DNA of 64,000 bases from Cliona cf. orientalis (taxonomy: Eukaryota; Porifera; Demospongiae; Clionaida; Clionaidae), in NCBI GenBank assembly GCA_963930775.1, contig OZ005699.1, positions 6,965,501-7,029,500 on the forward strand, given 5' to 3'. The notes beneath the pieces were generated by a model. The model had not been told where the DNA came from and ran no database searches. It saw nothing but the letters and a program-made list of their open reading frames with translations. The translations under genes were made by a program, and so were the position numbers. Positions 1,991 through 58,363 of the stretch are shown in pieces (position 1 is the first letter of the stretch; every line of letters begins with the position of its first letter).

Positions 1991-2025
1991 ATCAACTGGC
2001 TACAATAACTAGCCTTAGGTAGATA
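1991..2025. other. Short spacer after Death-domain gene
   Basis: Only 35 bases separate the stop codon of the coiled-coil/Death gene from the TIR element that starts at 2026. The polyadenylation signal of that gene is therefore likely inside or beyond the element. Confidence 0.4.
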
Positions 2026-3007: not shown

Positions 3008-3147
3008 AGAGTTTCCAACCAGTTTCCAAGTTTGGGAAATGAACTCAGTGTGCAAGCTTGGACACTCAGGAAGTTAATGTTATCTTGCATTTGTGGTTGC
3101 TTGTACACTGAGTTCATTTCCCAAGTTTGGAAACTGCTTGGAAACTA
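3008..3147. repeat. Foldback repeat, 140 bp
   Basis: Two arms of about 40 bases are near-perfect inverted copies. The left arm contains AAGTTTGGGAAATGAACTCA and the right arm its reverse complement. A loop of about 55 bases separates them. The structure could form a long hairpin. No coding content. Confidence 0.6.
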
Positions 3148-3269
3148 CAAGTGAATAAGAAGTGTAACACTTGTGCACTGCCATCGTTCATGCAGTGCTA
3201 GTGAGTGAGAAAGCCCCTGCACTTTAGTGTATGTTTAAGCGGAATGATATTGCTTCAGCCTCGCGATCG

Positions 3270-4500: not shown

Positions 4501-5050
4501 TTCAGCTCAGTCACTGGGTAAATTAATGTTCCCGTGGTCAAAATGATCGCACCTTCTTGGCCCAAAGTTGTTCGTCCCGTCACTGATGCCAGGGTAAGGA
4601 TGTTGCTAGATGTGGCCTGTCAATTGGCATATTCTTGGCTTCATTGTTTCACGACTGATGACACAGTGGACCTCCTTTTGTTTACATGTTGCAATCTTTG
4701 GCCTTTCTCTGCATCTGAGTGGATGCCCAACGTCCTGAACTAGAGATGCACCCCTCCAATTTTTAAGGGATATACCGGGTAATCAGCTCTACCTCTACAT
4801 GCTTACAAGCAGCTCCTAGTACATCAATGTACGCACTCAGGATTCTACAGGAGTTTATTACTGGAAATGGTCGTCGTTGAACTAAGCATCAGTTCACAGT
4901 CCAGTCCATATACCCGGGACCCGTGCTGCATGCACTAATACACCACACCCTTGTCACGTGATCTAACTATAGCGCGCGCACGCGCATGATGATATGAGCA
5001 TGCAATCTCGAAGAGGAAACAGTACAGGATATTGGCACGGTGGCGAGAAC
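4500..5050. other. Intergenic, nothing recognised
   Basis: No exon, RNA gene or clear repeat ends were found. A GC-rich purine/pyrimidine run GCGCGCGCACGCGC lies near 4973. The region leads into a TATA-rich stretch at 5054 that may be a promoter. Confidence 0.4.
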
Positions 5051-5053
5051 TGC

Positions 5054-5067
5054 TATATATATATATA
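5054..5067 (+). promoter_or_regulatory. Possible TATA box of Kelch/Death gene
   Basis: A TATATATATATATA run lies 44 bases upstream of ATG 5111, which is followed directly by a GTAAGC donor. The spacing would allow a short 5' leader. AT runs are common in this window, so this is only a positional argument. Confidence 0.3.
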
Positions 5068-5110
5068 CACGAAGGTGCAACTCTAGTAATCATAACAAGC
5101 CGAGATCATC

Positions 5111-17100: not shown

Positions 17101-18039
17101 CAATGTGGATGGGATATCATGATACATATACATGTACCAGCCATAGTTGATCAATAGCAACTCTGCCTGGAATAAACCACTGTATCTAGTGTATCTATCT
17201 CCAAAACATGACATTGTACATAATACTGTACTAGTCTCATCATCGCCTTCTGCATACGCCTATGGGAGAGGGTAATTTACAGAATATTATGGGTTTGTTC
17301 AGCTAGAATGCAATATGTGCATATGCTGGTGCATACTGTATAGTGGGTAACTTTGGCGAACATTACATTGATTTTTGTGAAATGGCTCTCCATTGGTATT
17401 GACAAAGTTTAAATCTGGTGAAGTTTCCTATGCCTGACTATCGTCTCAATAGATGTATGATGTTTAACGCACAACTTTGCACCCATACATGACTATGGCA
17501 ATACAACTACAATAGACTGGATTCACCCTGTAGGGGACATTGGAATAACTCCGTGTAGGTGTATACGTATAGTGGTGTAAAGACTGACAATGCAAGACTA
17601 GTACCAGTTGTGTTTACATCAATCTAGCATACCGGAAGTCATCAACTGAGCCACAATCTGAGCAGCAACTGGCTCCAGTCCCTCCATGGTCTTGATGACC
17701 TCGATGAGCGTAGACCAGGTCACTGGCTGTTCCGATGGTGCGGAGCGTAGCCAAACCTTCATAGTGTCGTGAAAGCACATACTGCTGTCCCCGCTCCGGC
17801 TCGCTCGGATTTCGTCCAGCCGTTTTCCATCGTCTTCGTCGGCCAGACCCAGCGCCGTGCCCAACTCCTCCCATCTCTTCGCCAAGTGTGGCTTCACGAA
17901 ACGCTGCAGCTCGCTTGGTTTCGGCTTTGACTCAAGACCTGCATGAATGATCATGAATGTGCGGCAGTACAGTACGCGATGTTTTTGTCGCGTGTTTGCA
18001 GCCACCCGCGCATCGATTTTAATCGAACTTACCTTCCAT
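14125..18039 (-). CDS. RLR1: RIG-I-like receptor with N-terminal Death domain
   Basis: Exons on the minus strand: 18039-18033 (ATGGAAG), 17938-17633 and 16583-14125. All junctions are GT-AG and phase-consistent, giving 923 residues. Residues 1-104 form a Death domain (ELQRFVKPHLAKRWEELG, ALGLADEDDG, TWSTLIEVIKTMEGLEP). A Ser/Thr/Glu-rich linker of about 130 residues follows. The helicase has motif I APTGSGKT near residue 268, motif II DECHH, motif III TASPG, IFVRTK, SVAEEGLDVPACN and the motif VI form QGRARA. This is the RLR/Dicer type of SF2 helicase. The C-terminal domain has CKNC and CAVC pairs, as in the zinc-binding RNA-sensing domain of RIG-I, MDA5 and LGP2. The inferred role is cytosolic sensing of viral RNA with Death-domain signalling. 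Vertebrate RLRs have CARDs here instead. It is divergently transcribed from the GNAT gene. Confidence 0.9.
17061..17075. promoter_or_regulatory. kappaB-like palindrome in RLR1 intron 2
   Basis: GGGGGAATTCCCTGG contains GGGGAATTCC, a match to the classical NF-kappaB site GGGRNNYYCC. Equivalent sites occur in intron 2 of RLR2 and RLR3. Binding is inferred only. Confidence 0.4.
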
Positions 18040-18103
18040 GAGGCTCATGGTGTATTTTCGAAGAAATATAAGTCGATTGAATAAACAAGCAATGGATACT
18101 CAG
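18033..18103. promoter_or_regulatory. Divergent start region of RLR1 and GNAT genes
   Basis: The RLR1 start codon (minus strand, 18039-18037) lies 52 bases from the preferred GNAT start (18092). An in-frame upstream GNAT ATG at 18038 would even overlap the RLR1 ATG. The two genes must share one promoter area, with 5' ends that touch or overlap. Confidence 0.55.
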
Positions 18104-20010: not shown

Positions 20011-23000
20011 ATGGAAGGTAAGGCTGCGCTCCTAATTTGGTAGCACACATGATGTACGCTTATGAGTATCGACAGCGCTAGCGTTTTATAATTGCAATGC
20101 CAATGGTTTCTGCGGTTAGCCGCTCCTCCTTGTGGTAGATTTATATTAACCTATTAATTAACCTTCAATCTTCACCTCTAGGATTGAATAGCAAACCGAA
20201 GCTGAGCGAACTTCAAAAGTACGTCCGACCCTATGTCGCTGAAAGGTGGGAGGACGTTGGCTACGCGCTGTGTCTCGCTGATAGCGACGATGGTGAGCAA
20301 ATGGATAAGATCAAGGAGGAGAAAAAGGGCGACCCTAACTCGTGCTTCAACGAGACCATGAAGCTGTGGCTGCGATCCGGCTTATCGTGCACTTGGACCA
20401 CCTTGATCGCAGCTATCAAGACTGTTGGTGGGCTGGAAGCTACTGGAGCTCAAATTGAAGCTCAGATTCTGGCTGCAAGTAAGACTTTTTGTTGTGTGCA
20501 AATGTAATAAAATACCTATAAGCATTGATAATTAGTCCTGGTTAAACTGAGGAATATTGCTAATGTACATACCTGCCACTAAATGTTTATGCTGCAATGT
20601 CATGTATAATAGCATAAAAGAACCTCTAATTGAATGTGTGTACTTGTGCACTTGCCTAAAAAGGGAAATTCCCTGGGACATCCCCAGCCTATGGAGCGGG
20701 GAGTTGTCCAGGGTATTTCCAGGCCACATCAGGATCAAAGGAAGTAAACAACAAAGCTTGTTATCACCTAAGTAGACTAAGAGTAGTGCTTGGTAATTCT
20801 AGGAGATTTGTGGTACATATTCCAGATAATAAGCTATAGTCTGCAAAAGGAACATAGGAGTACTAGTCTTAGCTGATACTATTTTTAATTTGCCAAAGAT
20901 GAGGTCAACATAATCATTGTGTTGGTGGTAAACAATGAATATGTTTTTTTGAGTGTGCATGATGTGCACAAATCATATCAATAATCATTGAGCTGAGCCA
21001 ACAGATTCATATATGAATTGATTATTTCTTGGGAAGTCCCTGCATGGGAGTCAAGGTGCTATTTCTGTGGCTTTGAGTCTTAGCTAGAGTAGCTATTTAA
21101 AGGACAAATGTTTTTTTATCTTCTATCAGAAACAAGTCCTCCACTGCGCCAAGCAAATAATCAACCAGCCAACTGCTCTCCCCAGGAAACGAGTACCCCT
21201 TCGACCGATGAAGACATGGATACCCAAATCAGCAGCGCTAGCACTAGTGTCACAGAATGCCCCAATGCTGCCAATGGTGATAGCATGGAAGCTATGCTAG
21301 CTAATGGACTGACAGCGGAGCCTGAAGAATTTGAGATCACTATTGATTACTCCATAAAGCTGGGGGCTGGAAAGCAAGTTCGTATGTATCAGCATGAGCT
21401 CGCGGAGCCTGGAATCAAAGGAGAGAACTGCATCATTGTGGCTCCTACAGGAAGTGGTAAGACCCTTGTGGCTGCTCTCGTCATCTCAGACCATCTACAA
21501 AAGAATCAATGCAACGTCAACAAGCCTACCGTTCTTTTTATCGTGAATACACGTCCGCTCGCTGAACAGCAGAAAAAAGAGATCAAGCAATTTATTCCTA
21601 ATGCTAGAGTTGAGTGCAGTATGGGTGACGGTGGACCCTCTGTTGCTGATCTACTGACCGACACTGATGTCATAGTTTGCACCGCAGGAAAGCTTCTAGA
21701 TTCTGTCAAGGGAGGAAAGGTGACATTTGACCAGATTAGCCTGATAGTGATGGATGAGTGTCATCACACAAAGAAGGAATCTTCCCAGGCTAACATCATG
21801 AGGAGGTATCTCGAGCATAAAGCAGAAGGTACGTCAAAGTTTCCACAGGTTATTGGTCTTACAGCATCACCTGGAGCAGGGGAAAACCCTGATCTTGATG
21901 AAAAGAAAACCATCGATCACCTGGTCAACCTCTGTGCTCACATGGACGCCACTCGAGGCATTGTGACCGTGAAGAAACATCAGGAAGAGCTCGATCGCTG
22001 CACTAACAAGCCGTCGTTTACGCTGGAAGTGCTTCAACGACGTGATCCTCAAGAGCCTTTCATCCAGATGATTATCCGTGAAATGGAAAGGCTGGAAAAA
22101 CATGTGCCATTCCTGAAATGTGCACTTCTGAAGTGGTCACCAGAATATGAGACAAAAGTTCAACAGGAAAAAGCACCGCTTGAGCTGAGCACCAATCCTA
22201 AGTTCAGGGATCAGATTAGCACTCTCTGTCTACTTCGCTGCTATTCTCAAGCCCTGAGCATCTACATGGATCTTCGCAGTGACGATGCAATCAGTGTCCT
22301 GCAGAGCTACGATGGTTTGCCTTCTGATGATAGGCAGGCGACTGTACATGAGCGAAATCTGAAGAAAGCACTTCAGCAAATGATGGTTAGCTTAGGACAC
22401 CTCCCTCAGACGGAAAACCCTCTCCTAAACGCTGCAGAGGAAAAGCTGGCCAGCGTGTTCGAATACAAACAAAATTCGAAAGTAATTTTCTTTGTCCGAA
22501 CGAAAGTGCATGCCCAGTCCATCTGCAAATGGATAGAGAGCCTACCTATTGCTTTAGAATACAGCATCCATCCACGTGTACTTACAGGCCACACCCGAGA
22601 CACTGGGACAGGAATGACTCAAGTAGCGCAGCAAGAAGTGATGGATAGCTTTCACAGTGGAGAATGCAACCTCCTAGTTGCTACTTCAGTAGCTGAAGAA
22701 GGTCTTGACGTACCTGCCTGTAACCTCGTTATTCGATTTCAGCACGTCTCCAATGAAATAGCCCGGGTTCAGACACATGGACGAGCTAGAGCTGATGAAA
22801 GTGAGGGATTCACAATTCTCTCGTGTGACACGAAAAAGAAGTTCCAGGAAATGAAAAATGAAATGCGTCTACGATTAATGGAAAGTTGCATGCAGTGGTT
22901 CCCATCTGGTGAGCATCTGGTACGCAAGATCATAGAACGGCAAAATGATATTATCAGCCGTCATAAGCGTAAGGTTGCTCTTCGTAAGCAATTGAATTTA

Positions 23001-23417
23001 AAGCAAGACTGCAATAATTTCCAGCTGAAGTGCAAGAAATGCAAGGTTCTAGCGTGTTCTGGATCTGATGTTTTCCTGATTGAAGATGCGTCCAATCACC
23101 ACATGGTCACAAACGAGGAATTTCGTACAAAAAAGATCATCATACGACCTCACGATCAACCACGACTCCTCTCTCAGACTGCCGAAATTGCAAAAACTCA
23201 TAAAATCTATTGCGCCAAGTGTGATGCTGACTGGGGAATAATGGTAACCTGGCCTACAAAAGGGTATCAGTTTCCTGTCCTAAAGTGCAAGAGCTTCATT
23301 TTTGAAGCTAAGGGAATTCCTCAGCCAGTTGGCAAGTGGTCAGATGCCCCGTTTAAAGTATCTGTTTGGATGGACCTGCAAGATCAGGATGAAGAGTCCA
23401 GCGATGATGACCAGTGA
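20011..23417 (+). CDS. RLR2: RIG-I-like receptor with N-terminal Death domain
   Basis: Exons: 20011-20017 (ATGGAAG|GTAAGG), 20182-20478 and 21130-23417, phases agreeing, 863 residues. The Death domain spans about residues 6-100 (ELQKYVRPYVAERWEDVG, ALCLADSDDG, TWTTLIAAIKTVGGLEAT). A short acidic/Ser-rich linker follows. Helicase motifs: APTGSGKT near residue 209, DECHH, TASPG, FFVRTK, SVAEEGLDVPACN, HGRARA (His where RLR1 has Gln in the motif VI QGRAR position). The C-terminal domain shows CKKC and CAKC zinc-ligand pairs. It is the sister of RLR3; the coding exons are very similar and the two were made by a duplication that includes introns and flanks. The same-strand RLR pseudogene lies about 650 bases downstream. 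Confidence 0.9.
20663..20677. promoter_or_regulatory. kappaB-like palindrome in RLR2 intron 2
   Basis: GGGAAATTCCCTGGG contains GGGAAATTCC, a full match to GGGRNNYYCC. A second related word, GGGAAGTCCC, occurs further down the same intron near 21030. The surrounding 80 bases are kept in RLR3. Confidence 0.45.
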
Positions 23418-24532: not shown

Positions 24533-25773
24533 ATGCCACCTAAGAAGCCCAAGCCCAAGTCCGCTACCTGTGATCTTTGCAGCAAACAGATTCAAGAAGG
24601 CAAGGAAGAGGCCCTCCACTGCGAAGGTGGCTGCGGCCTCTGGTTTCACCGCTACTGCGCGGGTGTCTCCGTCTCCCTCTTCAAAGAGCTCGCCTGCAGC
24701 CCTGAACCGTTTCTGTGCTATATTTGCTACCAGCGTTCACAGCTCGCCGTCACCGAGGAATTGAGAAACGAAGTAGCCCACTTGAAGAGAGTGAAATCAC
24801 CAAGCTATCGGAGCAACTGGCCATGGCCATGCAGTCAAGTCCAGGGCCAGCAAAGGATCCAACCACTGTAAGTCAATCATCCAATAACACTAGCACAAGT
24901 ACAAGTACCACCAGCAATGTACCCACATATGCTGCATCCCTAAAACAAACCAACAATCCTGCTACTGCCTCTGCCAATCCTAACCGAGGTTCTGCCTCTA
25001 ACAAGTATTCATCAATAGACAAAAAATTCAATGTTGTTATGTATGGCCTGAGCGAGTGTCTCAAAGGCTCTCCAAGACACGAGCGCATATCCTATGACAC
25101 AGACCTGGCATGCAAGATAATCAAAAGTATATGTCCTGACATTGGTGACTACGCTATATGTGACTGCAGCAGGATTGGTTCATACTCCGAGGCCAGAACA
25201 AGACCTTTAATTGTTAAATTTGCCCGCTCTTATGATGTTGCCACAGTTCTCTCAAACAGGTTCAGAATATCCAAATCCGAACACCCCAATGTGTATATCA
25301 AACCCTTCATGTCAACCATTGAACGAAAAATTGAGTCTACACTACTCAAAGAGAGAAGAACCCTCATAGACAATGGAGTCGAGAGAAGGCTCATCAAAAT
25401 ACGTGGTAACTCTATATACGTAAACGGAACCAAAGTAGGCTCAGCGAACGAAGACACCTTCATTCGACTCAATCAACACAGTACCCACGGTTTACCGCGT
25501 GATTGTACGCCAACAGTCAACAACAGTTCTATCACCATGTCAATGTCTACAAGTAGCAATCCCAACGGCACCTCAAGCTCCAACGCCATGTCTAACAGTA
25601 CACTGTCTTCAGACAACACCAACACTAATAATGCCATGTTTACAACTACAAGTGACCCAAACAACATCTCTCTTACAAGCAACACTGCCAATGCCATGTC
25701 TACCAGTGACACCCACAACACCAGAGTTGCAGGAACTACGTCTCCCTCAACCCTGCTACCCAATCAAGACTGA
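24533..25773 (+). CDS. LINE ORF1, PHD finger protein with one frameshift
   Basis: The frame from ATG 24533 gives about 85 residues with a PHD-like zinc finger: CDLC, CEGGCGLWFHRYCAG, CYIC. Between about 24770 and 24795 the coding frame shifts; the continuation in the next frame (EESEITKLSEQLAMAMQSS onward) reaches TGA at 25773. The second half contains an RRM/ORF1-type region (FNVVMYGLSECLKG, RTRPLIVKFARS) and a long Ser/Thr/Asn-rich tail. ORF1 proteins of this class bind the element's RNA. This copy's ORF1 is broken by that single shift. Confidence 0.75.
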
Positions 25774-25866
25774 CTAGTACCTTCCAACAACAATTTAAAT
25801 TCAGATGCAACAATTCTCTACAATCATGATCATGTTACAAATCATCCCACAAATTTCACCAACTCC

Positions 25867-28779
25867 ATGATTACCTGCTGCTATCTTAACATTAGAAGTA
25901 TAGTTAACAAATTATCTCTATTCCAATCTTATGTATACTCCTCCGATTTTGATGTAATCTGTCTAACCGAGACGTGGCTATCAGAATCTGTATTCGACCA
26001 GGAAATTCTCCCTACAAACTACAACATCCACCGTAAAGATAGACCCTCATGTGGAGGTGGAGTGTTAATTGCTACAAAAAGCACTATTCCTGTTTCTGTT
26101 ATCTCATCTGACTCACCTAACAATTCACTTGAAATCTTAACGGTTCGGCTTAACCTCAGCAAACCTGTTACACTCAGCTGTGTTTACTCTCCTCCCAACC
26201 CTAGCGATTCCCTCATGTATGATTTAATCTTGGACCTGACTCAAATCGTCCAATCCAACCTATCAACATATGTTATTATTATCGGTGACTTTAATCTACC
26301 TGACATTAATTGGCACACTCTTTCCTCAACCTCCACACTATCAAATGCCTTCTGTGACTTTATCTTCGACAACTCATTGTCACAACTAATTGACCAACCT
26401 ACCCACACCAAAGGCAACATCCTTGATCTTTTACTCTCAAACACAGACGAACTGGTAACCAACCTCACCATATCCCCCATCAACAACTGGATATCCTCTG
26501 ATCATTTTGTTATCGCATTCAGTTTAGCCCAGCAACTCATTCGAACTTCACCCACGATCCCCAAATATGTCTATGACTTCCCGAAAGCCAATTTCAGTGC
26601 CATACTGTCTTATCTACTCGACTTCGAATACTCACCCTGCTTACGAAGTCAGGATGTCGAATTCATCTGGCATGAAATAAAGAATTCTATTCATAATGCC
26701 ATGAACATGTTCATACCAAAGGTCAGGCTTAGGAGACACCAATTCCCCTGCTGGTATACACCTGAGCTTAGGCACCTTTCAAAATGCCTACGCTCGATCA
26801 AGAAAAAGTCCAGTAAACACGCAACACCCCATCTCCAACACAAAATAAATGACCTTGAATCTGAGTACCGCAGCAAGACATTACTTGCCAAATCCAACTA
26901 TGAATCCCAACTAATCCAATCTTTTGCTGGTTCACACAACTCAAAAATATATGATTACATCCGAACCCTATGCAAGAATAGCACCATACCCCCTATTGTT
27001 TCTCTTAATAACTCCAATGCGACTTCCGACACTGACAAAGCTGAGCTCTTCAATACCTTCTTTCACTCAGTCTTCACAGGTAGCTCTTTTTCTCTACCGG
27101 ACATGAGTACTCTTCCCATGCCACCTTCTTGCTTATGCACTATATCTTTTACAGACTCCGAAGTATTTGATGCCCTTTCATCACTTGACCCTACGAAATC
27201 AAGCGGCTGCGATGGTATTGGCTCCAAACTGATTAAACACTGTGCCATAGCACTCTACTTACCACTACACCACCTCTTCTCTGTGAGCCTATCTAAACAA
27301 TGTATCCCCCATGAATGGAAGTGCCATTCTATTACTCCCATCTTCAAATCTGGTGATAAATCCCAAGTCATAAACTACCGACCAATATCTCTTCTGTGTA
27401 TAGTGTCTAAAGTCTTGGAACACCTTATCTTTATTAAAATAAGTAAGTTCATCACAACTAATAATATCTTTTACCATCACCAATTCGGTTTCCGTCAGCA
27501 TCACTCCACAACCCAGCAATTGCTGATCTTTTTAAGTGACATACTCAGTGCCCTCAACAATTGCAGCTGTTCTCAATGTGATATTATCTATCTTGACTTT
27601 AAGAAGGCGTTTGACAGTGTACCTCACCAAGAGCTCTTGTTGAAACTGTGGAAGACTGGCATCGTGGGAAGTCTGTGGAAATGGTTCAGAGAATACCTAA
27701 CCAACAGATACCAACATGTAAGCATTAACAACAGTAAATCCTCCACTCTACCTGTAGTCTCAGGAGTTCCTCAGGGAAGCATTCTTGGTCCTTTCCTATT
27801 TCTCATCTACATCAATGACTTATCCTCCTCAGTGAAACACTCCAAAACTTTCCTGTTTGCTGATGACACCAAATGTCTTCGGCCAGTTTGCTCCCCTCAT
27901 GACTGTATCCTCCTCCAATCTGATCTTGATGCACTATCCTTGTGGAGCGCTGACTGGAAACTAAAGTTCAACGAGACAAAATGTTCTATGTTATCCATCT
28001 CTTCCCATGCCTCCTCCAATCACTGTGACACCCAGACGGATTACCTCATCAATGGTCTATCTATCGCCCGATGTAACCAACAAAAAGATCTCGGAATATT
28101 AATATCATCAGACCTATCCTGGTCTCACCATATCTCAAGAATAACTTCCAGAGCCTACAAAATACTATGTCTTCTCCGTCGCACATTTGCTTCATCCAAC
28201 AACGTCATCACCAAGAAAAAACTTTATATCTCCCTGGTACGATCTCAACTTACCTATGGATCCCAAGTTTGGAGACCACTCCTTCAAAAAGATATGAACC
28301 CAATCGAACATATTCAACGTCGTGCAACGAAATATATACTGAATGATTACACTTCTGACTACAGGACCAGATTAATCACACTTAATATTCTACCAATGTC
28401 AATGTTGCTTGAGCTCAGTGACCTGTGTTTCTTTGTTAAGTCTTTGAAACTCCATGAGTCACCCAACCAATCATTCAACATCTCCGACCACGTTTTCTTC
28501 AGCCACAACAACACCAGGTCTGGTACTTTTAACAAGCTAGTTCAACCTCCTATTAAACACAATAGAGACAAACAATTCTACTTTTACAGACTACCCCATC
28601 TATGGAACTCGCTACCTCCCATTGATCTAAACTTATCATTCATAACCATCAGAAAACAATTAATTGACATCTTCTGGAAGTCATTTCTCACCAATTTCAA
28701 CCCAGATATCAGCTGCTCATACTATTTCGCATGTCCCTGCCCAAGGTGTTTCTCCGTACCAAAATCCTGCTTCAACTAA
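25867..28779 (+). CDS. LINE ORF2, endonuclease plus reverse transcriptase, intact
   Basis: A 970-residue uninterrupted frame. The N-terminal AP-endonuclease part shows LNIRS, LTETWLS, GGGVLIA, IIGDFNLPDINW and SDHF. The reverse transcriptase shows YRPISLL, QFGFRQHHSTTQ, YLDFKKAFDSVPH, GVPQGSILGPFLFLIYIND and the catalytic FADD. The protein nicks target DNA and copies the element RNA there. No RNase H or zinc knuckle was recognised at the end, which ends in a Cys-containing tail (CPCPRC). The length is usual for CR1/L2-type ORF2. Confidence 0.9.
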   Translation: MITCCYLNIRSIVNKLSLFQSYVYSSDFDVICLTETWLSESVFDQEILPTNYNIHRKDRPSCGGGVLIATKSTIPVSVISSDSPNNSLEILTVRLNLSKPVTLSCVYSPPNPSDSLMYDLILDLTQIVQSNLSTYVIIIGDFNLPDINWHTLSSTSTLSNAFCDFIFDNSLSQLIDQPTHTKGNILDLLLSNTDELVTNLTISPINNWISSDHFVIAFSLAQQLIRTSPTIPKYVYDFPKANFSAILSYLLDFEYSPCLRSQDVEFIWHEIKNSIHNAMNMFIPKVRLRRHQFPCWYTPELRHLSKCLRSIKKKSSKHATPHLQHKINDLESEYRSKTLLAKSNYESQLIQSFAGSHNSKIYDYIRTLCKNSTIPPIVSLNNSNATSDTDKAELFNTFFHSVFTGSSFSLPDMSTLPMPPSCLCTISFTDSEVFDALSSLDPTKSSGCDGIGSKLIKHCAIALYLPLHHLFSVSLSKQCIPHEWKCHSITPIFKSGDKSQVINYRPISLLCIVSKVLEHLIFIKISKFITTNNIFYHHQFGFRQHHSTTQQLLIFLSDILSALNNCSCSQCDIIYLDFKKAFDSVPHQELLLKLWKTGIVGSLWKWFREYLTNRYQHVSINNSKSSTLPVVSGVPQGSILGPFLFLIYINDLSSSVKHSKTFLFADDTKCLRPVCSPHDCILLQSDLDALSLWSADWKLKFNETKCSMLSISSHASSNHCDTQTDYLINGLSIARCNQQKDLGILISSDLSWSHHISRITSRAYKILCLLRRTFASSNNVITKKKLYISLVRSQLTYGSQVWRPLLQKDMNPIEHIQRRATKYILNDYTSDYRTRLITLNILPMSMLLELSDLCFFVKSLKLHESPNQSFNISDHVFFSHNNTRSGTFNKLVQPPIKHNRDKQFYFYRLPHLWNSLPPIDLNLSFITIRKQLIDIFWKSFLTNFNPDISCSYYFACPCPRCFSVPKSCFN

Positions 28780-33900: not shown

Positions 33901-34665
33901 GCTGAGGTGGGCAAGTATACATACTTGCCAGCTTGAATTTTATCATTTTTTTGGTTTCAGTAAGGTTACGGGATAGTGTCAAAGTTCACATGAATAATAA
34001 ATGGGACAGTTATATTGAATTTCCTTTTTATGTCCACATGGGAGAGAACATAAACACTGAGATTACTGTGTGTGCTATGGTACCTACCTAGAGGATGACA
34101 ATCACTGTGGCTGGAGTGCATCCAGCTGTGCTAGATCGATCCATATAATTGTATCAATGATGATGATCATCATCATAATACCATCGTGCCCCTCTATCCA
34201 TGCTACCTTAGGGTGACTATTTTTTGCGGGCACTAACGTTAATTTCTGCGGATTGGTCCAAAAGCGCAAAATTTTGTACCCACTAACATTAGCTATTTGC
34301 AGTATAGAGCATTAGAATTTGTCGATCCTATACTAGCTACCATTTTTGCATACTAATTACATAATTTAGTATTCACAAATTGTTTTATCAGAAAAAATTG
34401 TACCTGCAAATAATTATCGCACTAAGGTCTATAGTATTAGCAATATTATAGTTGCATATTATTATTATACATTATTGAACATTCACACATAATATTATTG
34501 AAACCAGCTGGTAAGGGGTATTCAAGGGTGCTGATTCTCATGGTATTTTCTAATAAAGAGCACTAGCTCGTTTTTACCACTGGCTGATAATCGTGTAGAT
34601 AATGTACGGAAATTAAGCTGATGATTGGTGGTTGTGGATGACAAGATTAAATTAAATTTTTGCAG
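33901..34665. other. Region before the NACHT gene, upstream exon not found
   Basis: The long exon of the NACHT gene is preceded by ATTTTTGCAG, a good acceptor, so an upstream exon (perhaps untranslated or a tiny start exon as in the RLRs) may be in this stretch or beyond. None could be placed. Confidence 0.35.
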
Positions 34666-34692
34666 GTTGGAAATAATTTTAACCAAACAAGA

Positions 34693-37600
34693 ATGGATGA
34701 ATTTTTGACTACTATTAAGACTAAATACCGATACTCTACTAGTAATCATGACCAGAAACAATGCCCACATTGTTACCCAAGTGAGCTAGTCAAATTAGAA
34801 TTGGTTGTGAAGAAAAGAGAACACGAGCCAACTAAAAAAAAGGGAGAATATGAACCCACTAGTACATGTCCAGACACTCAGCTAGTACCTTACAGTAACA
34901 TATTTAAGAAAGAAAAGGAACAGGCAGTTAGAAGGGTCCTTATTGAAGGTGTCACTGGAATTGGTAAAACTGCTTTATGTTTGTCAATCTCAGAAGAATG
35001 GGCGAATGAAAAGGTTTTTCAAGAATTTAAAGTGCTTCTTTTATTACCTCTTCATGAAAAGAGAGTAGCAGCCGCCAGTTCACTTGCTGAATTGTTACAA
35101 ATTTTGCAAGGGGTTGAAATTTTATCAGCTTCCATAGCTGACGATATAAAAAAGACAAATGGAGAAGGTGTACTTATTGTCGCTGATGGATGGGATGAAC
35201 TTGATGCACCAGAATGTTCAGAGTCCTTTTTGTGTAATCTTTTATTTGGTCATATCCTTGAGCTTGCTTCAATTGCTGTGACTTCCAGACCATCATATTC
35301 TGATTGGCTATGCAAGAATGGATGCTTTGACAGATTGTTGAGCATACGTGGCTTTGATGATGGAAGTATCAGACAATATATCCAGCTTGATTTTACCAAT
35401 AGTCAACAAAAATCCGATCATATTTTAAAGACAGTGGACAGCAATCCACTGATAAAAAGAGTGTGCCGTATTCCCTTAAACTGTGCCAGTCTTTGTTACT
35501 TATGGCGCACTGAATCTCGAAAAGTAACCACAATGACAGAGCTCTGCACCAAGATGATTTGGAATGTTGTTCTTTATAGCATCAAGAAAGCAGATAAATA
35601 TGAATTTCAAAGCATTTCACACCTGTCCATTGTTGAAAGGCTACCAGAGGAGCTAAAAAGTTCATGGTGGGATCTGTGTCGGCTTGCTTTCCAAACAATA
35701 TTTATTCAAAAATCTCAGCGGATCAACTTATCACAGTCTAAGTCCAATAATAATATGTTAATAAAGTTTGGCTTAGTTGAGATTGTCAATGAAGTGAGCA
35801 TGAAGTGTGACTTTCTTCATCCAGCATTTCAAGGATACCTTGCTGCCCTTCATGTTGCAAACCAGTGTCACAGTCCAGATGCACACATGCAAGATCAATG
35901 GATTCGGTCAATGGGTAAACAAGTCACTGAGTTTTGGAGATTTTTGTTTGGAATTTGTGGGCAGAGTAGAAGTAATTTAGTACTACTTGAGCGTGCCATC
36001 CAATTATTATCGAAATTTAATCATCTAAGGTGTCTAATTTGTCACTGTGCATTTGAAGCCAAGAATCTTATGATCGATAAGAAAGCTATCGAAGCACTTA
36101 GTACCCCATCTGGCTCTAAACATTTTGGTGATCCAAAAACTACTCATGATTGTGAAGCTATCCTATATGTTATCAAACAAATGGGAAACGTACAATCTGA
36201 TGCCAAACTAGAGCTAAACTTTAAGTATTGTAATTTCAAAAAACAACAGCTTCATGACTTAATGAAAATACTCACAAAGAGGGATAACAAAATTGAAGTT
36301 AAAAGTTTAAACTTGAGTAATAAATTTAACCTACCAAACAAGGAAGTAGCTGACCTTTTCAACAAGGCAAACAAGGAGTTGACTGCCTTTCAGACGTTGG
36401 AAAAACTTTCTCTTCGTAATAATAAGATTGGTAAAAAGATTGGAGAAGCCTCTTATACCATGAAAGCACTACGGTTTTTGAAGTGTTTGACTCAGCTAGA
36501 CTTGTCTTTCAATCGTTTGACATGTCCTGGTTTGGAAGCATTGCAAGATACTGTTAAATGTGGTTCTTTGGCACAGTTAGAGATCTTGCTCTTGCAAGCA
36601 TCACTTAGTCGTGATGCAAATGAAAACATTGATTTTCTCAAGACTTTCACACAATCCCTTGTACGTCATTGCTGTAAGTTGCGGGAATTAGACATCTCTA
36701 GAAATGATTTAGGAAAACCAGGGTCTCCATTTGTTGGTGCTCTTGTCGGTGCTCTTGTCGGTACCCTTACTGGCTTGAATCTTCATGTGAATAAAGAATA
36801 CGAGTCAGAAGTTGACAAAAATTTTATAAGAACAATGGAAGACTTAGTAAGACGGGAGGAGGAAATCAGTCATACTGTAGTTCACGGTGTAATTGTTGGT
36901 CCTGGACGATCTGGAAAAAATTCTCTCATGGATCGTTTAATGGGCAAAGGTCCTCTCAATCCAGGCACAGTCTCTCCTAGTACTGGTGTTTTAGACAGTG
37001 TAATCAAAGTGGAGGTGAAGAAATTGTGTACAATGGATTCAGCTACAACTAGTTTGAAATGGACAAAGTTAGAGTATGATGAAGAAGCCCTTGAATTAAT
37101 GATGATCACTATAATAACTCATATTGCTTCACTTGCTGATAAAGAAAGAAAATTAGAGGCTATACCAGATTTGGTTACTCGGATAAATGAACCCGTTAAT
37201 ATTGCATCTGCAGTAATAGTTGTTGAAAATAAAGGTGAAAGCGAGAGTGAAACAGAAAGTGAAAGCAAAATTGACAGTGATCAAGAAGAAGTAACAGTTC
37301 CTGAGGTAGCTAAGGGAGCTCTAATTCATCCTCATAATGAAATTGAAGTGCCAGTATCATCATCAGAAACATCAAAAATTGCGTATTCAAAAGAGTTTAG
37401 TTTACGTGAAGGACCTATGGATATCTTCAAACGTGCTGTTAAATTGCGACATATGCATGCACTTCGTGAACACCTTGAGTCAAAATGGTCCCTCTACCTG
37501 ACAAATACAGGAGGTCAATTGGAATTTCAGGAACTTATGCCGCTTCTTGTCTGTGGACCTTCTGTATTTTTCGTTACAATTCCTCTGAACTGTGATCTCA

Positions 37601-40600
37601 ATGAGCCTTACCCTGTACGATATCAGTATCCCAATGGCAAAGAGAAAATATATTTGTCGTCCTTCACATTGATGGACGAGATACTTCAGACTCTTGCCAC
37701 CATAGCAGCTTTAGATTGCACTGGATCTCAATTAGAAGAGGTTGATCATAAGCCTATTAAGCCTAAAGTATTTTTTATTGGTACTCATAAAGATCAACTG
37801 CCAGAGTCCTCAGCTGACGATAAGATCCAGGAGATCGATAAGCAACTTCAAGATATTGTCAAGCAAACATCACTTAAGCAAGATTCAATTCAATATGCTG
37901 AGGGTAGTGATCAGCTTATGTTTACGGTTAATAATCTTAACGAAGATGATTTTGATTTTCAAAAGATCCGTTCAGCCTTACAGAGAATGGTTGAAAGGCG
38001 AAAAGAATTCACAATACCATGCCCTTGCTCTTGGCTAGTTTTCAGCCTTGTTCTTCGAGCAAAGCACAAATCAAGTCAAGTCTTGAGTTATTATGAATGC
38101 CTTACTGTAGCACAAAGCTGTGGAATATCAAGCAAAGAAGGCTTTAATAAAGCACTACTTTTTATTCACCATAGACTTGGCTTAATAAGATATTTCCCTG
38201 TCAAAGGACTTAATGATCGTGTGATTATTGATCCTCATCTTATGTTTGATACAATCACAAAACTGATAGTAGAAACGTTTATTAGTGATCATGCCAATGA
38301 AAGAGAAATCAAAGATCTTCAAAAGAGGGGCATTTTCTCAATAGAAACCATGAGAACAATTATTTTGAAATATTCTGACTCACAGCTTCCATTTGAGTGG
38401 ATTCTAACACTTCTCAATCATCTTGGAATAGCTATTTTTTTCGAAGATCATGATCAAAAGAATTGCTTTTTTCCATGTGCACTTTGCCATGCTCCTGAGC
38501 AGCAAAGATCAAGTGTTTCAAATTGCTCAATCAAGCTACCACCACCTATATCAATTGCATTTAAAGGAGAATTTTGTCCAAGAGGCATTCCTGGAGCACT
38601 TATAAAATCTCTCATGGATATTGAAATGAAATCACCAAATTCTTGGAAACTTCATCAAAGGAGGGTATTCAGAAATCAGGTTTCCTTTAGTGTCGGGCCA
38701 GGTGATATTATCCTCAAGATTCTACCCACTCATATTGAAGTTTGCTTTGATCCTGAATCAGGAACAACTGACCAGAATGAAGTAAATGTTACCTGTGAAG
38801 AAGCTTACAAACAGATCAAGAGGGTTATGAGTGACATAATTGTGAAATTTCGTGAATGTAATTATTATTTCGCCTTCAACTGCACACGATCTGAATGCAA
38901 AGAACGTCCACATCCAGCCAAGATTGACTGGGATATAAATAAACTTGAGTGCAGAATAACTGACAGAAAGAGTCACTTACCTGATGGTTACAATTTATGG
39001 ATACAAAATGGTGCATATCAACAAGGTAATTGATAGTTGTATTGTGACCATCTAATATTATGACAAGCACAATAAATTATGATAGAGTGGGGGACTTTGC
39101 TGTAAAAGATATAGCTACCAATGACCTCAGCGTAAAGATTTGAGATTGATTATACAAATCTGACACGCCGTAAAGTGCTTTATTTTGTGTTATATAGTAC
39201 CTAAGACTTTCCATGTTTCCAAATTATGTTGAGAAACAAGCATGGTACAAAGCTAGGCATAAGGTGTTTCTATGTATGCATGTTTCTGTCTACTGTGCAC
39301 ACACATGTAGCTATTGTGCCATCTGAAATGGACAATACGGTCAAGTTTACCATTATCAACTCTTTATCTTTTGAAAATTATTGTCCATGATATTCAAAAG
39401 GCAGATCATGGGTTGAGCATATAAATTCAAATTTGTGCCTTTGTGAATGAGCAGCTCTATCTATATAATATTATACTTACCCTGCTTGTTCAGTGTTCGG
39501 TACACTGGTACACTGAAATCTGAAATCTAAGACTTACTTTCCTGAGCCTAGCTGCCTATTGGGCTACTAGATATATTATAGCTAGCTATCTAAAAGCAAG
39601 ACATACATTTTCCTCCATGTGTGCTATTGCATAGAAACATTGCCTGAACTTCGAATTTGGACCAAAAGGTAGGGCATTGCCAGAACTAAAAGTGCCATAG
39701 TTCATATGCCCACTGCCTATAAAGCCCTATGTCAATAATCCGTATTTCTGATATTAATTGCTCTCCATTGGTAATTCGCACTCTACACTATAATTATAAA
39801 ATATTCATGTTGTAATATTTTTTGCATATCCAGTTCTCAGGGATCGACACCTTGGACAAATAGCTGATGAAATGTGTGAATGGGAGGGGCGTATTGCTGA
39901 GCAACTGGATCTTACACTAGCTCATGTTGCAGCTATCAAAAAACAATATCCTGAAAAATTAGAACTACAATCGTAAGCTAAGAATCCATATGGTGCTTGC
40001 ATATTGCATGCTTTTGTAGCTACATCATGCATGCATGTACGCAGAACATTATGCGCTCCTATAATATTATAATGAAGTTGTAATGTTATTAATTTTAGGA
40101 GAGAAGCATTGCAGAAATGGAAACAAAAGCTTGGCACTAAGGCCACGTATAACAGTCTAATCAAAGTGTTTAAACAAGCTGGCTATGAAACTTATGCAGA
40201 ATTTGTTGAGAGTCTGGTGAAGAATATGCAAACGGATACTGAAGATTCCAATAGGAATGCAATTAATCAGTCTCCTCCCCCTCCTTTACAACCACCATTA
40301 CCAGTCTTTCCATCTGAGTTTGAACAATTTTCAGAATCACCATATGCTACTGCTGCTGGGGTTAAGATTCTACAAGAGGATTACCAATTAGGTACTAAAG
40401 AAGCAGTCAGGAGCATAATAATAATACCATGCATACATTATCTCGATGACACTAGCATTAAAATTAATATTACTGTTAAGATCGTACCTACTGTTATGTG
40501 TATACAACAGTTAAATCATTGTTTCATAATATCATTATACATCAGAGCGTGATCCAGGAAGTAGTACAGTACTGAAAGCTAAAGAAGTACATTGTGATAA

Positions 40601-42110
40601 TGACAGTTCCTCACAGTCACAGTCCAGCGAAAATGATGAAGACAGCTCTATGGAAGTGGAGCATCAAGGAGTCATGGTTAGTGATTTGATGTCACAGTAT
40701 TTCATCGTGGGGGCAAACTTGCTTATGAAATGATACTCGACGTGCCTGTGCCTCAATGATCTGGGCCAGCCCATCATTTTGTTCTTTGTCAAGTACCGTA
40801 TGGCGGGTAATTTTTGTGGGGTGCTAATTTTCGTTATTTTCATAGTTGACTTGGCAGTCACGAAATTTTCCTACCCACGAAAATTAATGCCTACGGTGAT
40901 ATGGTACTATGCGAGTCCATGATGATGGGCGTGGCCACAAACATCGTGGCAGCACGGCCAACACTTTCCAGTGTTAGCAAGCAACAGTAGCCACTGTCAT
41001 CCAGCTGATAGCATCTTCGACACTAATATTCTTCTATCTCATGCCTTTTGTCCAAGTCTCTGTAGGTACATGTATATGGCTTAGTAACAAAGAAGATCAC
41101 GAGTGCATGTATCGATTACATCATCACTTATGCAGCAGTGCCACGCCCCTAGACTGGTTGCTGTCACGAAATTCATATCCACGAAAATTAATTTTGAGGG
41201 CCTTTTCGGACTTTTACAAAAATTAGACCGCACGAAAATTATACCCGCCATACGGTATCTAGTGATTGACGTGTAAGATTGAGTTTGCAAGCAAGCAACA
41301 AGCTGGAACCTACTGATAAGGCTACTTTTCATAGCATTGTGACATATAGGCCTATGGGCTCATTTCTGGCTTCCTTCCTGAGCTCCTCTTAACTGCGCTC
41401 TTACTGTTTCTGACTCTTGTCTGGTTTGAGCTCCATTCTGGTGGCTTTTCCTAGCTTGCTGTCTTTCCGTATGTTCTCTTCTCACTCAGTTTCATTGGAC
41501 TATGGTTGTTTGAGCATACACACAAAAGAAAACATGTGTTATTTCCGTGTACATATGCATGCTTAATCGACCAAAGCACTTCCGCTGAATGAACGGCTGT
41601 GGGGCTCGCTTATACGCTTGCCCCAATTACCAAGGTATTATTATTTACTGGCTGTTGTATACTATAATATGAATAAGAGGGTCCATACTTACAATAAGTC
41701 AATTACATTGCATGTTATAGGAGTCATGTGACTATGAATTATCTGAACAACCAGAAGCTGAAAGTGTTGTTGCTACGAAAGACTCTGCTGAGTTACATAA
41801 TGAACTCGTTAGATCAACAATGGAATCTGCTCAAGAATTCTCCGACCATGCACATCAAAGTGTATTGAAACAAAGCAATGAAACTGATACTGAGGCTCAA
41901 TCTGAAAGCGAGCTGGAAAAAGAGGCTCTGTCCGATAACGAACAGTCTGGCTCAATGGAGAGAGCGGTCACTTCGTTAAAACAAAGTGAACTTGAAGGTG
42001 GGGCTCCGTCTGACAACAAACCATCAAGCTCAATGGAGAGAGAGGATTCTTCATTGAAACAAATCACACTAGGAGGTGAGGCTCTGATAATAAACTATCT
42101 GACTCAATAG
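34693..42110 (+). CDS. NACHT - LRR - Roc-COR - Death protein, about 1760 residues
   Basis: Exons: 34693-39025, 39834-39972, 40099-40391, 40546-40676, 41721-42110; all GT-AG, all phases agree. The first exon may start at the acceptor at 34665; I use the first ATG. Domains: NACHT NTPase with Walker A GVTGIGKT (residues 86-93) and Walker B VADGWDELD (about 162-170); leucine-rich repeats about 537-695 (LEKLSLRNNKIG, LTQLDLSFNRLT, LRELDISRNDLG); a Roc-like GTPase with GPGRSGKN at about 736, NTGGQ at about 938 and THKD near 1030; COR-like region about 1110-1290 (IIDPHLMFDTITKL); Death domain about 1445-1540, split by an intron (HLGQIADEMCEWEGRIAEQL, then YNSLIKVFKQAGYETYAEFV); an acidic tail with 26-residue-like repeats. 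The Roc P-loop has Asn where Ser/Thr is usual, and G3 has Asn for Asp. A cytosolic immune sensor is inferred; no ligand is known. Confidence 0.85.
40794..41257. mobile_element. TIR element in intron 4 of the NACHT gene
   Basis: The ends TACCGTATGGCGGGTAATTT and, inverted, AAAATTATACCCGCCATACGGTA are matched over about 20 bases. TA at both termini suggests a TA target site, as for Tc1/mariner-type elements. Non-autonomous. Confidence 0.65.
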
Positions 42111-42180
42111 AGAGAGAGGATAATTCATTGAAACATAGCAAACTTGGAGATGAGACCCAATCTGACAAACTGATGATGTA
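41820..42180 (+). repeat. Tandem coding repeat in the NACHT gene tail
   Basis: About four degenerate units of roughly 78 bases, each with a TTGAAACAAA..GAACTT..GACAACAAACC..TCAATGGAGAGAGAG pattern. The protein reads LKQSELEGGAPSDNKPSSSM. In the third unit four bases present in the earlier units are missing (after GAGGCTCTG, near 42081). The frame then ends at TAG 42110 although unit-like sequence goes on to about 42180. Confidence 0.65.
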
Positions 42181-43081: not shown

Positions 43082-46000
43082 ATGGAAGGTAAGGCTGCGT
43101 TTCAAATCTCGTAGCACATGTACACTCATACAGCTTTAATTGCCCCTCCTTGGTAGATTGTTAATTAAATTTTTATGAATCTTCAATCTTCACCTTTAGG
43201 ACTGAATAGCAAACCGAAGCTGAGCGAACTTCAAAAGTACGTCCGACCCTATGTCGCTGAAAGGTGGGAGGACATTGGCTACGCGCTGTGTCTGGCTGAT
43301 AGCGACGATGGTGAGCAAATGGATAAGATCAAGGAGGAGAAAAAGGGCGACCCCAACTCGTGCTTCAACGAGACCATGAAGGTGTGGCTGCGATCTGGCT
43401 TATCGTGTACTTGGACCACCTTGATCGCAGCTATCAAGACGGTTGGTGGGCTGGAAGCTACTGGAGCTCAAATTGAAGCTCAGATTCTGGCTGCAAGTAA
43501 GCACATTAATTTTGTTGTGCAAAATTAATGCAAGCATAATAATTTGATGTTTTAGTCGTAGTAACTGAGAACTTTATTGAGTAATATTGCTGGTGTAGCT
43601 ACCTGCCACTAAACTTAATGTCCATGCTACAATGTCATGTTGAGTGAGCATACTTATATTATTCACTTGCCCCTGAACGGAAATTCCCTGGGACATCTCT
43701 TCTAGCCTGTGGTACGGGGAGTTGCCCAGTGTATTTCTTGGCCACATCAAAGGAGTATTAAATTTAGTAGACCAAGAGTAATTCTAGGAGATATGTGGTA
43801 ATAATTGAGAATTAGCCACTGTCTGCAAAAAGAAAGTGGGAGTTTTAGTGGCTGATTACTATCTTTTGACAAAGATGAGATCAACACAACCATTGTGTTG
43901 ATAATAAAAATGAATGTGCTGTTTTGAGTGTGCATGATGTGCCACAATTAAACATGAGCTGAATCAACAGATTCTGATTATTTCCCGGGATGTCACTAGT
44001 GTACTGTTTCTGTAATTTTAGGTAGAACAGCTATTTAAAGGAGGAATGTTTTTCCTTTTATTAGAAACAATTCCTCCTCCACTGCACCAAGCAAACAATC
44101 AACTGGCCAACTGCTCTCACCAGCAACTATGTACCCATTTGAATGATGAAAATATGGATACCAATAGTGTTGAATCTGCCAAATGCCCCGATGCCACCAC
44201 AGGTGATAATTCAGAACTTGTGCTAGCTATTGGTCCAACAGTAGAGCCAGAAGAATGTGAGATCACCACTGATTACTCCATAAAGCTGGGAGCTGGAAAA
44301 CAAGTTCGTAAGTATCAACACGAGCTCGCGGAGCCTGGAATCAAAGGAGAGAACTGCATCGTTGTGGCTCCTACAGGAAGTGGTAAGACCCTTGTGGCTG
44401 CTCTCGTCATCTCAGACCATCTACAAAAGAATCAATGCAACGTCAACAAGCCTACTGTTCTATTTATCGTAAATACTCGTCCACTTGCTGAACAACAGAA
44501 AAAAGAGATCAAGCAATTTATTCCTAATGCTAGAGTTGAGTGCAGTATGGGTGATGGTGGACCTTCTGTTGATGAACTACTGACCGACACTGATGTCATA
44601 GTTTGCACCGCAGGAAAGCTTCTAGATTCTGTCAAGAGAAGGAAGGTGACATTTGACCAGATTAGCCTGATAGTGATGGACGAGTGTCATCACACAAAGA
44701 AGGAATCCTCCCAGGCTAACATCATGAGGAGGTATCTTGAGCATAAAGCAGAAGGTGCATCAAACGTGCCACAAGTCATTGGTCTTACAGCGTCACCTGG
44801 AGCAGGGGAACATCCTGGTCTTGATAAAGAGAAAACGATTGATCATCTGGTCAACATCTGTGCTCACATGGACGCCACTCGAGGCATTGTAACCGTGAAG
44901 AAACATCAGGAAGAGCTTGATCGCTGCACCAACAAGCCGTCGTTTATGCTGGAAGTGCTTCGACCACGTAATCCTCAAGAAGAGCCTTTCATCCAGATTA
45001 TCATTCATGAAATGGAAAAATTGGAAAAACATGTATCGCTCTTGAAATATGCACATCTGAAGTGGTCGCTGGAATATGAGTCAATAGTGCAACATGTAAA
45101 ATCTACACTTGAGCTGAGTACCAATCCTAAGTTTAGGGATGATATTAGCACACTCCGTCTACTTTGCTGCTATTCTCAAGTTCTTAGCATCTACATGGAT
45201 CTTCGCAGTGACGATGCAATCTGTATCTTGCAAGGCTATGATGGCTTGCCTTCTGATGATAGTCAAGCAACTATACATGAGCAAAATCTAAAGAAAGCAC
45301 TTCAGCAAATGGTAGTTAGCTTAGGACGCCTCCCTCAGACGGAAAACCCTCTCCTAAATGCTGCAGAGGAAAAGCTGGCCAGCGTGTTTGAACACAAACG
45401 AGATTCGAAAGGAATTTTCTTTGTGCGAACCAAAGTACATGCCCAATCCATCTGCAAATGGATAGAGAGCCTACCCATTGCTTCAAAATACAGCATCCAT
45501 CCACGTGTACTTACAGGCCATACCCGAGACACGGGGACAGGAATGACTCAAGTAGCGCAACAAGAAGTGATGGATAGCTTTCACAGTGGAGAATGCAACC
45601 TACTTGTAGCTACTTCAGTAGCTGAAGAAGGTCTTGACGTACCTGCCTGCAACCTCGTTATTCGATTTGAGCACGTCTCCAATGAAATAGCCCGGGTTCA
45701 GACACATGGACGAGCTAGAGCTGATGAAAGTGAGGGATTCACAATTCTCTCGTGTGACACGAAAAGAAAGCTCCAGGAAATGAAGAATGAAATGCGCCTC
45801 CGACTAATGGAAAGCTGTATGCAGTTATTCCCAACTGGTAAGCATCTAGTACACATGATCAAAGAACGACAAAACGAGATTATCAGCCGTCATAAGCGTA
45901 AGATTGCTCTTCGTGAGCAATTGAAGTCAAAACAAGACCGCAGTGATGTCCGGCTAATGTGTAAGAAGTGCAAGGTTCTAGCATGCTCTGGATCTGATAT

Positions 46001-46337
46001 TTTCATAGTTGAACTTGCTGTCAATCACCACATAGTCACAAGTGAGGAATTTCGCGCGAAAAAGATCGTCATTCGACCTCACGAGCAACCACGACCAGTC
46101 TCTGCCAAAGTCGCAAAAACCCACAAAATCTATTGCGCCAAGTGTGATGCTGACTGGGGAGTAATGATAACCTGGCCTACAAAAGGGTATCAGTTTCCCG
46201 TCCTAAAGTGCAAGAGCTTCATTTTTGAAGCTAAGGGAATTCCTCAGCCGGTTAGCAATTGGTCAGATGCCCCGTTTGAAATATCTGTTTGGATGGACCC
46301 ACAAGATCAGGATAAAGAATCCAGCGGTGATGCATGA
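43082..46337 (+). CDS. RLR3: RIG-I-like receptor with N-terminal Death domain
   Basis: Exons: 43082-43088 (ATGGAAG), 43200-43496 and 44065-46337, phases agreeing, 858 residues. The Death exon is almost identical to that of RLR2 (same length, 297 bases). The linker between Death domain and helicase is the most divergent part. Helicase motifs: APTGSGKT, DECHH, TASPG, FFVRTK, SVAEEGLDVPACN, HGRARA. The C-terminal domain has CKKC and CAKC. Like its sister, it is expected to bind viral RNA and signal through Death-Death contacts. RLR2 and RLR3 together with shared introns and flanks show a segmental duplication of about 4 kb, now separated by the LINE-bearing pseudogene, 5 kb of repeats and the NACHT gene. 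Confidence 0.9.
43678..43692. promoter_or_regulatory. kappaB-like site in RLR3 intron 2
   Basis: CGGAAATTCCCTGGG is the counterpart of the RLR2 palindrome with the first G changed to C. On the opposite strand GGGAATTTCC still fits GGGRNNYYCC, so a site may persist. Confidence 0.4.

Positions 46338-47048: not shown

Positions 47049-58363
<11,315 letters not shown>

Follow-up and report, generated by a model that had tools for sequence, protein, structure and literature searches.

A predicted sponge protein joining an NLR body to Roc-COR and Death domains, with a paired substitution in the Roc nucleotide site

Both NLRs and Roco proteins have been connected with innate immunity and cell death, as separate proteins. 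What, then, is to be made of a gene that appears to hold both? Such a gene lies in a 64,000-nucleotide stretch of the genome of the sponge Cliona cf. orientalis (GenBank assembly GCA_963930775.1, contig OZ005699.1, positions 6,965,501 to 7,029,500, forward strand), here called the window, to which the coordinates below refer. An earlier note, made from the letters alone, had described NACHT, LRR, Roc-COR and Death domains in this gene. We propose that its product would be a cytosolic receptor in which a complete NLR body that lacks an N-terminal effector is fused ahead of a Roc-COR-Death module of the DAPK kind, the Roc-COR part acting as a non-cycling hinge and the Death domain as the output, a reading to which we give an even chance of being right.

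The gene model on which this proposal is built starts from a stop-free frame at 34651-39033 (+) that holds both P-loops and has its first ATG at 34693. The predicted protein comprises 1761 residues from five exons joined by four GT-AG junctions (phases 1, 2, 1, 0).

34657..34665, + strand: likely splice acceptor (TTTTTGCAG) of an intron in the 5' leader, 27 nt upstream of the ATG; a CAG|GTT(G/A)G site is common to copies L010-L013 (alignment by eye)
34693..39025, + strand: exon 1, NACHT-LRR-Roc-COR in one frame; 1444 codons plus one base, then a GT donor; 31 further collinear loci in the genome
39834..39972, + strand: exon 2, first part of the Death domain (start near 39848); PF00531 on the joined exons; detected in 19 of 20 fetched copies
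40099..40391, + strand: exon 3, second part of the Death domain (to about 40213) and a Pro-rich linker; PF00531; detected in 19 of 20 fetched copies
40546..40676, + strand: exon 4, acidic and Ser-rich; open frame and splice signals; matched in one of six copies (L010, 67% over 46 residues)
41721..42110, + strand: exon 5, acidic tail on a 74-bp repeat; open frame; a similar tail in one of six copies (L013)

The domain order, motifs, coordinates and consistent junction phases of the earlier note hold, with the correction that the NACHT, LRR, Roc and COR parts are coded without splicing and that the Death domain alone needs it. We infer that the Death exons are spliced onto exon 1 in the animal. 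Since the length of the leader in the near copy L012 differs by 7 nt, the sequence upstream of the ATG is probably untranslated, with ATG 34693 as the start and no N-terminal effector missing. A hidden N-terminal effector exon was considered because a splice acceptor precedes the ATG, yet the leader seems untranslated, and this candidate was set aside.

Since NLR and Roco proteins usually form separate families, two neighbouring genes or a mis-assembly might have been taken as one. We consider such an artefact extremely improbable, and for NACHT-LRR-Roc-COR it is refuted by the single stop-free frame, by collinear loci elsewhere in the genome and by homologues with both halves. A search of the animal's own genome found at least 32 loci, including the studied gene, that match the exon-1 protein collinearly at 40-100% identity (33 rows amounting to 32 loci, C1:241965-246050 having given two; 32 of 921 first-look candidates were scored). 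Stops were found inside only two of the 31 other loci, one of them L025, and 29 had none. Twenty of the 31 were fetched for downstream Death exons, motif counts and identity comparison; L025 was left out of the trees and kept in the motif and Death counts. In a protein collection with 310 homologues, precomputed annotation of the 119 listed besides the window's own gives NACHT in 117, COR-A in 117 and both in 115; compared with the 20 fetched copies, 9 of these 119 are at least 99% identical, 12 at least 90% and 107 below 90%. Ratios of nonsynonymous to synonymous substitution rates (dN/dS) are mostly under 1 in both halves, and a pseudogene was ruled out for the studied copy. The combination is therefore a large family and not a curiosity. 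A scan of prokaryote contigs for the fused gene gave 42 pattern stretches and no relatives, distant ones not being excluded.

Is the first half an NLR? The following features belong to it.

34930..35388, + strand: NACHT, residues 80-232; Pfam 4e-15, phmmer to NLRP3 1.3e-8; Walker A GVTGIGKT, Walker B-like VADGWDEL, sensor-1 Arg
35389..36162, + strand: helical, winged-helix and HD2-like region, residues 233-490 (approximate); the phmmer match to NLRP3 covers residues 55-388 and the model aligns over NLRP3 134-1024
36163..36807, + strand: LRR block of ribonuclease-inhibitor type, residues 491-705 (approximate); LRR_6 profile

The NACHT domain scored 56.5 bits against a cut-off of 26.7 in the exon-1 protein, and the motifs GVTGIGKT and VADGWDELD, which the earlier note had assigned to the first of two P-loop NTPases, do stand in the same open frame as the second. 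As had also been claimed, LRRs lie between NACHT and Roc: LRR_6 matched C-terminal to NACHT in three stretches (3.7e-10, 39.5 bits against a cut-off of 23.4), and an LRR fold is seen in the model. The predicted model of the NLR body (pLDDT, the per-residue model confidence, 86.5) has NOD2 and NLRP3 as its top fold matches, aligned across the whole model and beginning at about NLRP3 residue 134, downstream of the NLRP3 PYD. The NACHT site is intact in nearly all of the 119 homologues, with the Walker A Lys in 117 (2 gaps), the Walker B Asp in 118 (1 gap) and the sensor Arg in 117 (1 gap, 1 His). The protein is thus an NLR by its NACHT domain and C-terminal LRRs, without the canonical N-terminal effector, no such domain being among the Pfam matches of the exon-1 protein; in the accessible part of PMC12909245 an N-terminal effector is not required of a 'bona fide' NLR. 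Compared with NLRP3- and NOD2-type NLRs, the likeness extends to the ATP-site residues of NACHT, the helical and winged-helix region, LRRs in NLR order and the fold of the first half, whereas here no N-terminal CARD, PYD or Death was found, Roc-COR follows the LRRs and the Death domain is C-terminal.

The second half raises the question of whether a working GTPase has been added to this body.

36862..37962, + strand: Roc, residues 724-1090 (approximate); the predicted model matches LRRK2, LRRK1 and C. tepidum Roco
36898..36921, + strand: Roc P-loop GPGRSGKN with Asn (N743) at the Ser/Thr position; column aligned to the LRRK2 P-loop Thr by a profile of relatives
37138..37419, + strand: disordered insert in Roc, residues 816-909; pLDDT under 50; residues 801-905 are the lowest conserved of nine regions (0.37)
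37504..37518, + strand: G3 motif NTGGQ with Asn (N938) at the usual Asp position and Gln kept; each in 119 of 119 homologues
37780..37794, + strand: G4 motif GTHKD; Asp in 119 of 119; aligned to LRRK2 GTHLD
38023..38478, + strand: COR-A, residues 1111-1262; Pfam 3.9e-8, 33.7 bits, 1.6 bits below the cut-off of 35.3
38479..39024, + strand: COR-B-like region, residues 1263-1444; model aligned to LRRK2 RocCOR over fragment residues 25-742

The Roc-COR fold is present in the predicted model and COR comes right after Roc, as in Roco proteins, while the canonical P-loop Ser/Thr and G3 Asp are absent. Of the profiles proposed in the earlier note, those for NACHT and Death scored above their cut-offs and that for COR-A just under, and the Roc profile PF08477 found no match in the exon-1 protein; at 0.01 it matches 6 of 28 aligned family members, the studied fragment not being one of the six. 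The failure of the COR or NACHT profiles, which would have spoken against that note's reading, did not occur. Its description of a Roc-like GTPase followed by COR stands as to the Roc fold and COR-A; with both the P-loop Ser/Thr and the G3 Asp exchanged, it should not be presumed to be an active GTPase.

In ordinary GTPases these two residues hold Mg2+ (Ser17 and Asp57 in Ras), and Ras S17N is a dominant negative. Asn938 is presumably the counterpart of the LRRK2 G3 Asp, an equivalence that we take from the NTGGQ motif. Among the 119 homologues, the P-loop column holds Asn in 96 and Asp in 23, and the G3 column holds Asn in all, while the P-loop Lys, Gln942 and the G4 Asp are each kept in 119 and Thr764 in 118. 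Because these other G-motif residues are invariant or nearly so, the site is under constraint and not decaying, and simple decay of Roc is disfavoured. A search with Roc-COR only gave 133 proteins, 120 among the matches listed, of which 117 were new; the pair is visible in 82 of these 117 (one or both positions not being visible in 35) and reads N/N in 57, D/N in 21 and S/D in 4, with no mixed pair. The DNA pattern G-P-[GA]-R-S-G-K-[ND] occurs 57 times in the genome, its third residue being Gly in 42 cases and Ala in 15, and once in a reversed control; with Ser/Thr-type codons at its end it occurs once in each. Kinase activity rose in DAPK1 with the artificial T701N, a change said to disrupt binding of GTP, and LRRK2 with T1348N bound less GTP/GDP (accessible part of PMC6320773), so that, judging from the alignment, most of the family naturally carries the P-loop Asn engineered in these two proteins. 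PseudoGTPases have been divided into those without binding, those that bind without catalysis and those with retained catalysis (accessible part of PMC5593906), and by its sequence this Roc could fall into any of the three.

How conserved are the parts? The mean frequency of the top residue among homologues is 0.79 and 0.76 in the two Roc halves, 0.73 in COR-A, 0.63 in COR-B, 0.59 in NACHT and 0.58 in the LRRs. Pairwise dN/dS over nine pairs and nine regions of exon 1 (estimates with no test) is mostly 0-0.6, with higher values of up to 0.79 in the insert, 0.77 and 0.84 in the P-loop region of two low-dS pairs and 0.64 in the HD region of one near-identical pair. Since the Roc halves and COR-A are the best conserved parts and dN/dS is mostly low, we take Roc-COR to be a conserved working part and not ballast. 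Positive selection on the LRRs was looked for and not seen in the pairwise dN/dS (0.14-0.58, nine pairs), and we therefore do not offer LRR variability as proof of ligand recognition.

Such conservation might also mean that the Roc switch still works, its metal site having been rearranged so that Asn/Asp and Asn would hold Mg2+ or another metal; GTP turnover would then be coupled to ATP exchange in NACHT, making a two-switch receptor. The paired nature of the substitutions, the invariant Lys, Gln and G4 Asp with the near-invariant Thr, the rank of the Roc halves as the best conserved regions and, for four of the nine pairs (L022/L029, L026/L028, L017/L018, L015/L016), dN/dS values of 0.06-0.38 in each part of Roc all fit this. 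However, 96 of the 119 rows have no acid at either position, and in the two proteins given the equivalent Thr-to-Asn change, nucleotide binding was reduced (LRRK2) or GTP binding reportedly disrupted (DAPK1; PMC6320773, accessible part). On balance we think a working switch unlikely.

The proposed output is the Death domain. On the joined exons 2-5, PF00531 scored 7e-10 (39.3 bits against a cut-off of 22.6), and the acidic exons 4-5 are open, which bears out the claim that a Death domain and an acidic tail end the protein. At least one Death exon was found downstream in all 20 fetched copies and both in 18 (tblastn, E <= 1), L024 and L029 having one each. Exons 4-5 are thinly supported, by the single copies listed above (six copies searched at E <= 0.01, with about 4.2-4.3 kb of flank each). 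A tandem repeat of 74-bp period runs through the acidic tail at 41950-42154, its units continuing beyond the stop at 42110, and because 74 is not divisible by 3 the tail frame can shift between units. In intron 4, at about 40795-41258, a stretch with inverted ends (GTATGGCGGGTAAT ... ATACCCGCCATAC) looks by eye like an insertion of the miniature inverted-repeat transposable element kind. The order of Roc-COR followed by Death is shared with DAPK1, whose layout is kinase-ankyrin-Roc-COR-Death (accessible part of PMC6320773). The kinase and ankyrin repeats of the DAPK group are missing here, neither being among the Pfam matches of exon 1 or exons 2-5; NACHT-LRR stands in front instead, and the P-loop has Asn/Asp where DAPK1 has Thr701.

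The genome also contains Roc-COR genes with no NACHT in the open reading frame. The G3 Asp is still present in two of them, L030 and L031, as is the P-loop Ser in L030 (in L031 the fetched stretch does not reach the P-loop); Pfam finds Death in both, in the same frame in L031 and in a separate downstream open reading frame in L030. L032 and L033 have an altered Roc (about 1 kb upstream covered). L034 (G000:C14:7550500-7560400, frame 3-7868) encodes at least 2622 residues with many ankyrin repeats, a Roc with GPPRSGKD and LTNTGGQ, and then COR, all in one frame; it has a DAPK-like layout without kinase, and its end is Death-like by eye. As a side observation, a PF16095 search of the genome gave at least 150 COR-A matches, a very large Roc-COR expansion, many of them in open reading frames of 650-900 residues, too short to hold NACHT-LRR as well.

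How these genes are related was approached with a Roc-COR tree of 89 rows made by a quick method. It covered the window's gene, 19 fetched copies (all but L025), L030-L033, 24 homologues sampled from the 119 at regular intervals, and 41 rows from the 117 additional relatives, among them the four S/D rows, selected by P-loop visibility, by length and for evenness of number. A row was given the label NACHT when more than 450 residues containing a P-loop motif stood upstream of its Roc, a rough criterion used in place of a profile. All 43 rows so labelled fall in one 54-row clade (SH-aLRT, a branch-support value, 100), whose 11 remaining rows are short or middling open reading frames, probably fragments. 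The nearest large outgroup has an altered Roc and no NACHT in the open reading frame, and the canonical-pair rows fall outside. In a NACHT tree, the 20 family NACHTs (that of the window's gene and those of the same 19 fetched copies) lie on one side of a branch with support of 100, and eight other NACHTs of the genome on the other. The simplest reading would be that Roc was altered first, that a single fusion to NACHT-LRR followed and that the family then radiated; root and order are uncertain, with long-branch warnings in both trees.

A single fusion could also have produced an integrated decoy, as has been proposed for integrated domains of plant NLRs. The Roc-COR-Death part would then be a copy of a Roco/DAPK-like protein, and pathogen interference with it would trip the receptor. 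One clade suggests one fusion event, relatives with an altered Roc-COR and no NACHT in the open reading frame do exist in the genome (L032-L034), and the Roc site is altered. However, its C-terminal Death domain gives the cassette the look of an output and not of bait, and an attacked bait should diversify, whereas conservation is higher in Roc and COR-A than in NACHT and the LRRs. We judge the decoy improbable.

We therefore return to the receptor with a non-cycling hinge. Counted in its favour are the domain order, the NLR and Roc-COR folds, the intact NACHT site, the paired Roc substitutions in a site otherwise kept, the effects of the DAPK1 and LRRK2 mutants, the single NACHT clade, the residues kept in L030 and L031, and L034 with its ankyrin repeats in place of NACHT. 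In this receptor, NACHT would most likely sense through the LRRs, swap ADP for ATP and oligomerise as NLRP3 or NLRC4 do, and Roc-COR would most likely be a second dimerisation and relay hinge. Since the Mg2+-holding positions are taken by Asn or Asp in the P-loop and by Asn in G3, the Roc nucleotide would be expected to be permanently bound or absent and not hydrolysed in a cycle. The C-terminal Death domains, once brought together, would recruit Death-fold adaptors or caspases and so lead to cell death or inflammatory signalling. The polarity of the signal would be reversed relative to ordinary NLRs, with the sensor first and the output last.

Several observations weigh against this proposal. 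The His of the winged-helix domain is retained in just 88 of the 119 homologues, and regulation of NACHT may therefore vary. Confidence in the Roc-COR model is moderate (pLDDT 71.1). In 23 of the 119 homologues the P-loop Asp might yet coordinate a metal, and retention of the Gln and Thr would be compatible with hydrolysis. COR-B dN/dS is estimated, with no test, at 0.86 against L010 and 1.04 against L011, and this region may be relaxed or diversifying. No Death domain (E <= 1) was found within 2.6-3.0 kb downstream of L032 and L033, so that Death is not tied to an altered Roc, and the C-terminus of L034, which by eye resembles the Death open reading frame at window 1595-1990, received no Death match from Pfam at 0.01.

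A broader proposal, which we advance tentatively and with somewhat less than even confidence, is that sponge-type animals possess an interchangeable Roc-COR cassette in which both Mg2+-ligand positions were exchanged together and the site is otherwise invariant. It would be a metal-independent, nucleotide-locked structural switch, grafted behind NACHT-LRR, behind ankyrin repeats or with no sensor in the open reading frame, and in dozens of genes it would make a two-NTPase, inflammasome-like receptor signalling from a C-terminal Death domain.

Has anything like it been seen before? LRRK1/2, MASL1 and C. tepidum Roco are LRR-Roc-COR proteins, whereas here NACHT lies upstream, there is no kinase, Death lies downstream, and the P-loop and G3 residues are replaced. 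Sea anemone LRR-GTPase-COR-TIR proteins and Aplysia TIR proteins with Roc-COR likewise join an immune domain to Roc-COR in invertebrates, with TIR there and NACHT here; the accessible parts of the two papers (PMC5094078 and PMC9334734) contain no mention of a single protein with both NACHT and Roc-COR. In searches of the open literature we found no paper on NACHT and Roc-COR in one protein; the nearest is PMC12909245, a 2026 paper that compares 11 sponge genomes and cites Yuen et al. on Amphimedon NLRs. Its domain list for bona fide NLRs from the sponge Dysidea avara includes COR, possibly in proteins of the same kind; the accessible part names COR once, in the legend of Figure 2, without Roc or motif analysis. 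The combination, for which the earlier note knew no standard name, has thus probably been glimpsed already, and the arrangement that it saw in one gene belongs to a large family. In the searchable open literature we found no description of this family, of its Death end or of the paired substitution. A large group of NLRs with the effector at the opposite end may escape surveys that look no further than NACHT and LRR. The natural P-loop Asn is an evolutionary counterpart of laboratory mutants of human proteins, and an NLR covalently coupled to Roc-COR-Death offers a testable case of a Roc-COR relay without GTP cycling, a question that concerns DAPK1 and LRRK2 as well.

Other features of the window and genome were noted in passing. 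RIG-I-like helicases are encoded at three places, 14125-16623 (-), 21093-23417 (+) and 44022-46337 (+), and all three have the RIG-I C-terminal RD domain. The short exons before them (17619-18044 -, 20139-20507 + and about 43202-43495 +) are Death-like by eye, with no Pfam match at E <= 1, and the Death open reading frame at 1595-1990 (+) scores 22.8 bits with PF00531 (cut-off 22.6). By eye, a retroelement at 24706-28779 (+) has an endonuclease like that of long interspersed nuclear elements and a reverse transcriptase, and another at 47491-51588 (-) has a Ty3/gypsy-like polyprotein in one frame. Elsewhere in the genome, two NACHT matches seemingly share one open frame at G000:C14:5415115-5417724 (2612 residues) and at G000:C14:7739010-7741595 (2443 residues), possible tandem-NACHT proteins.

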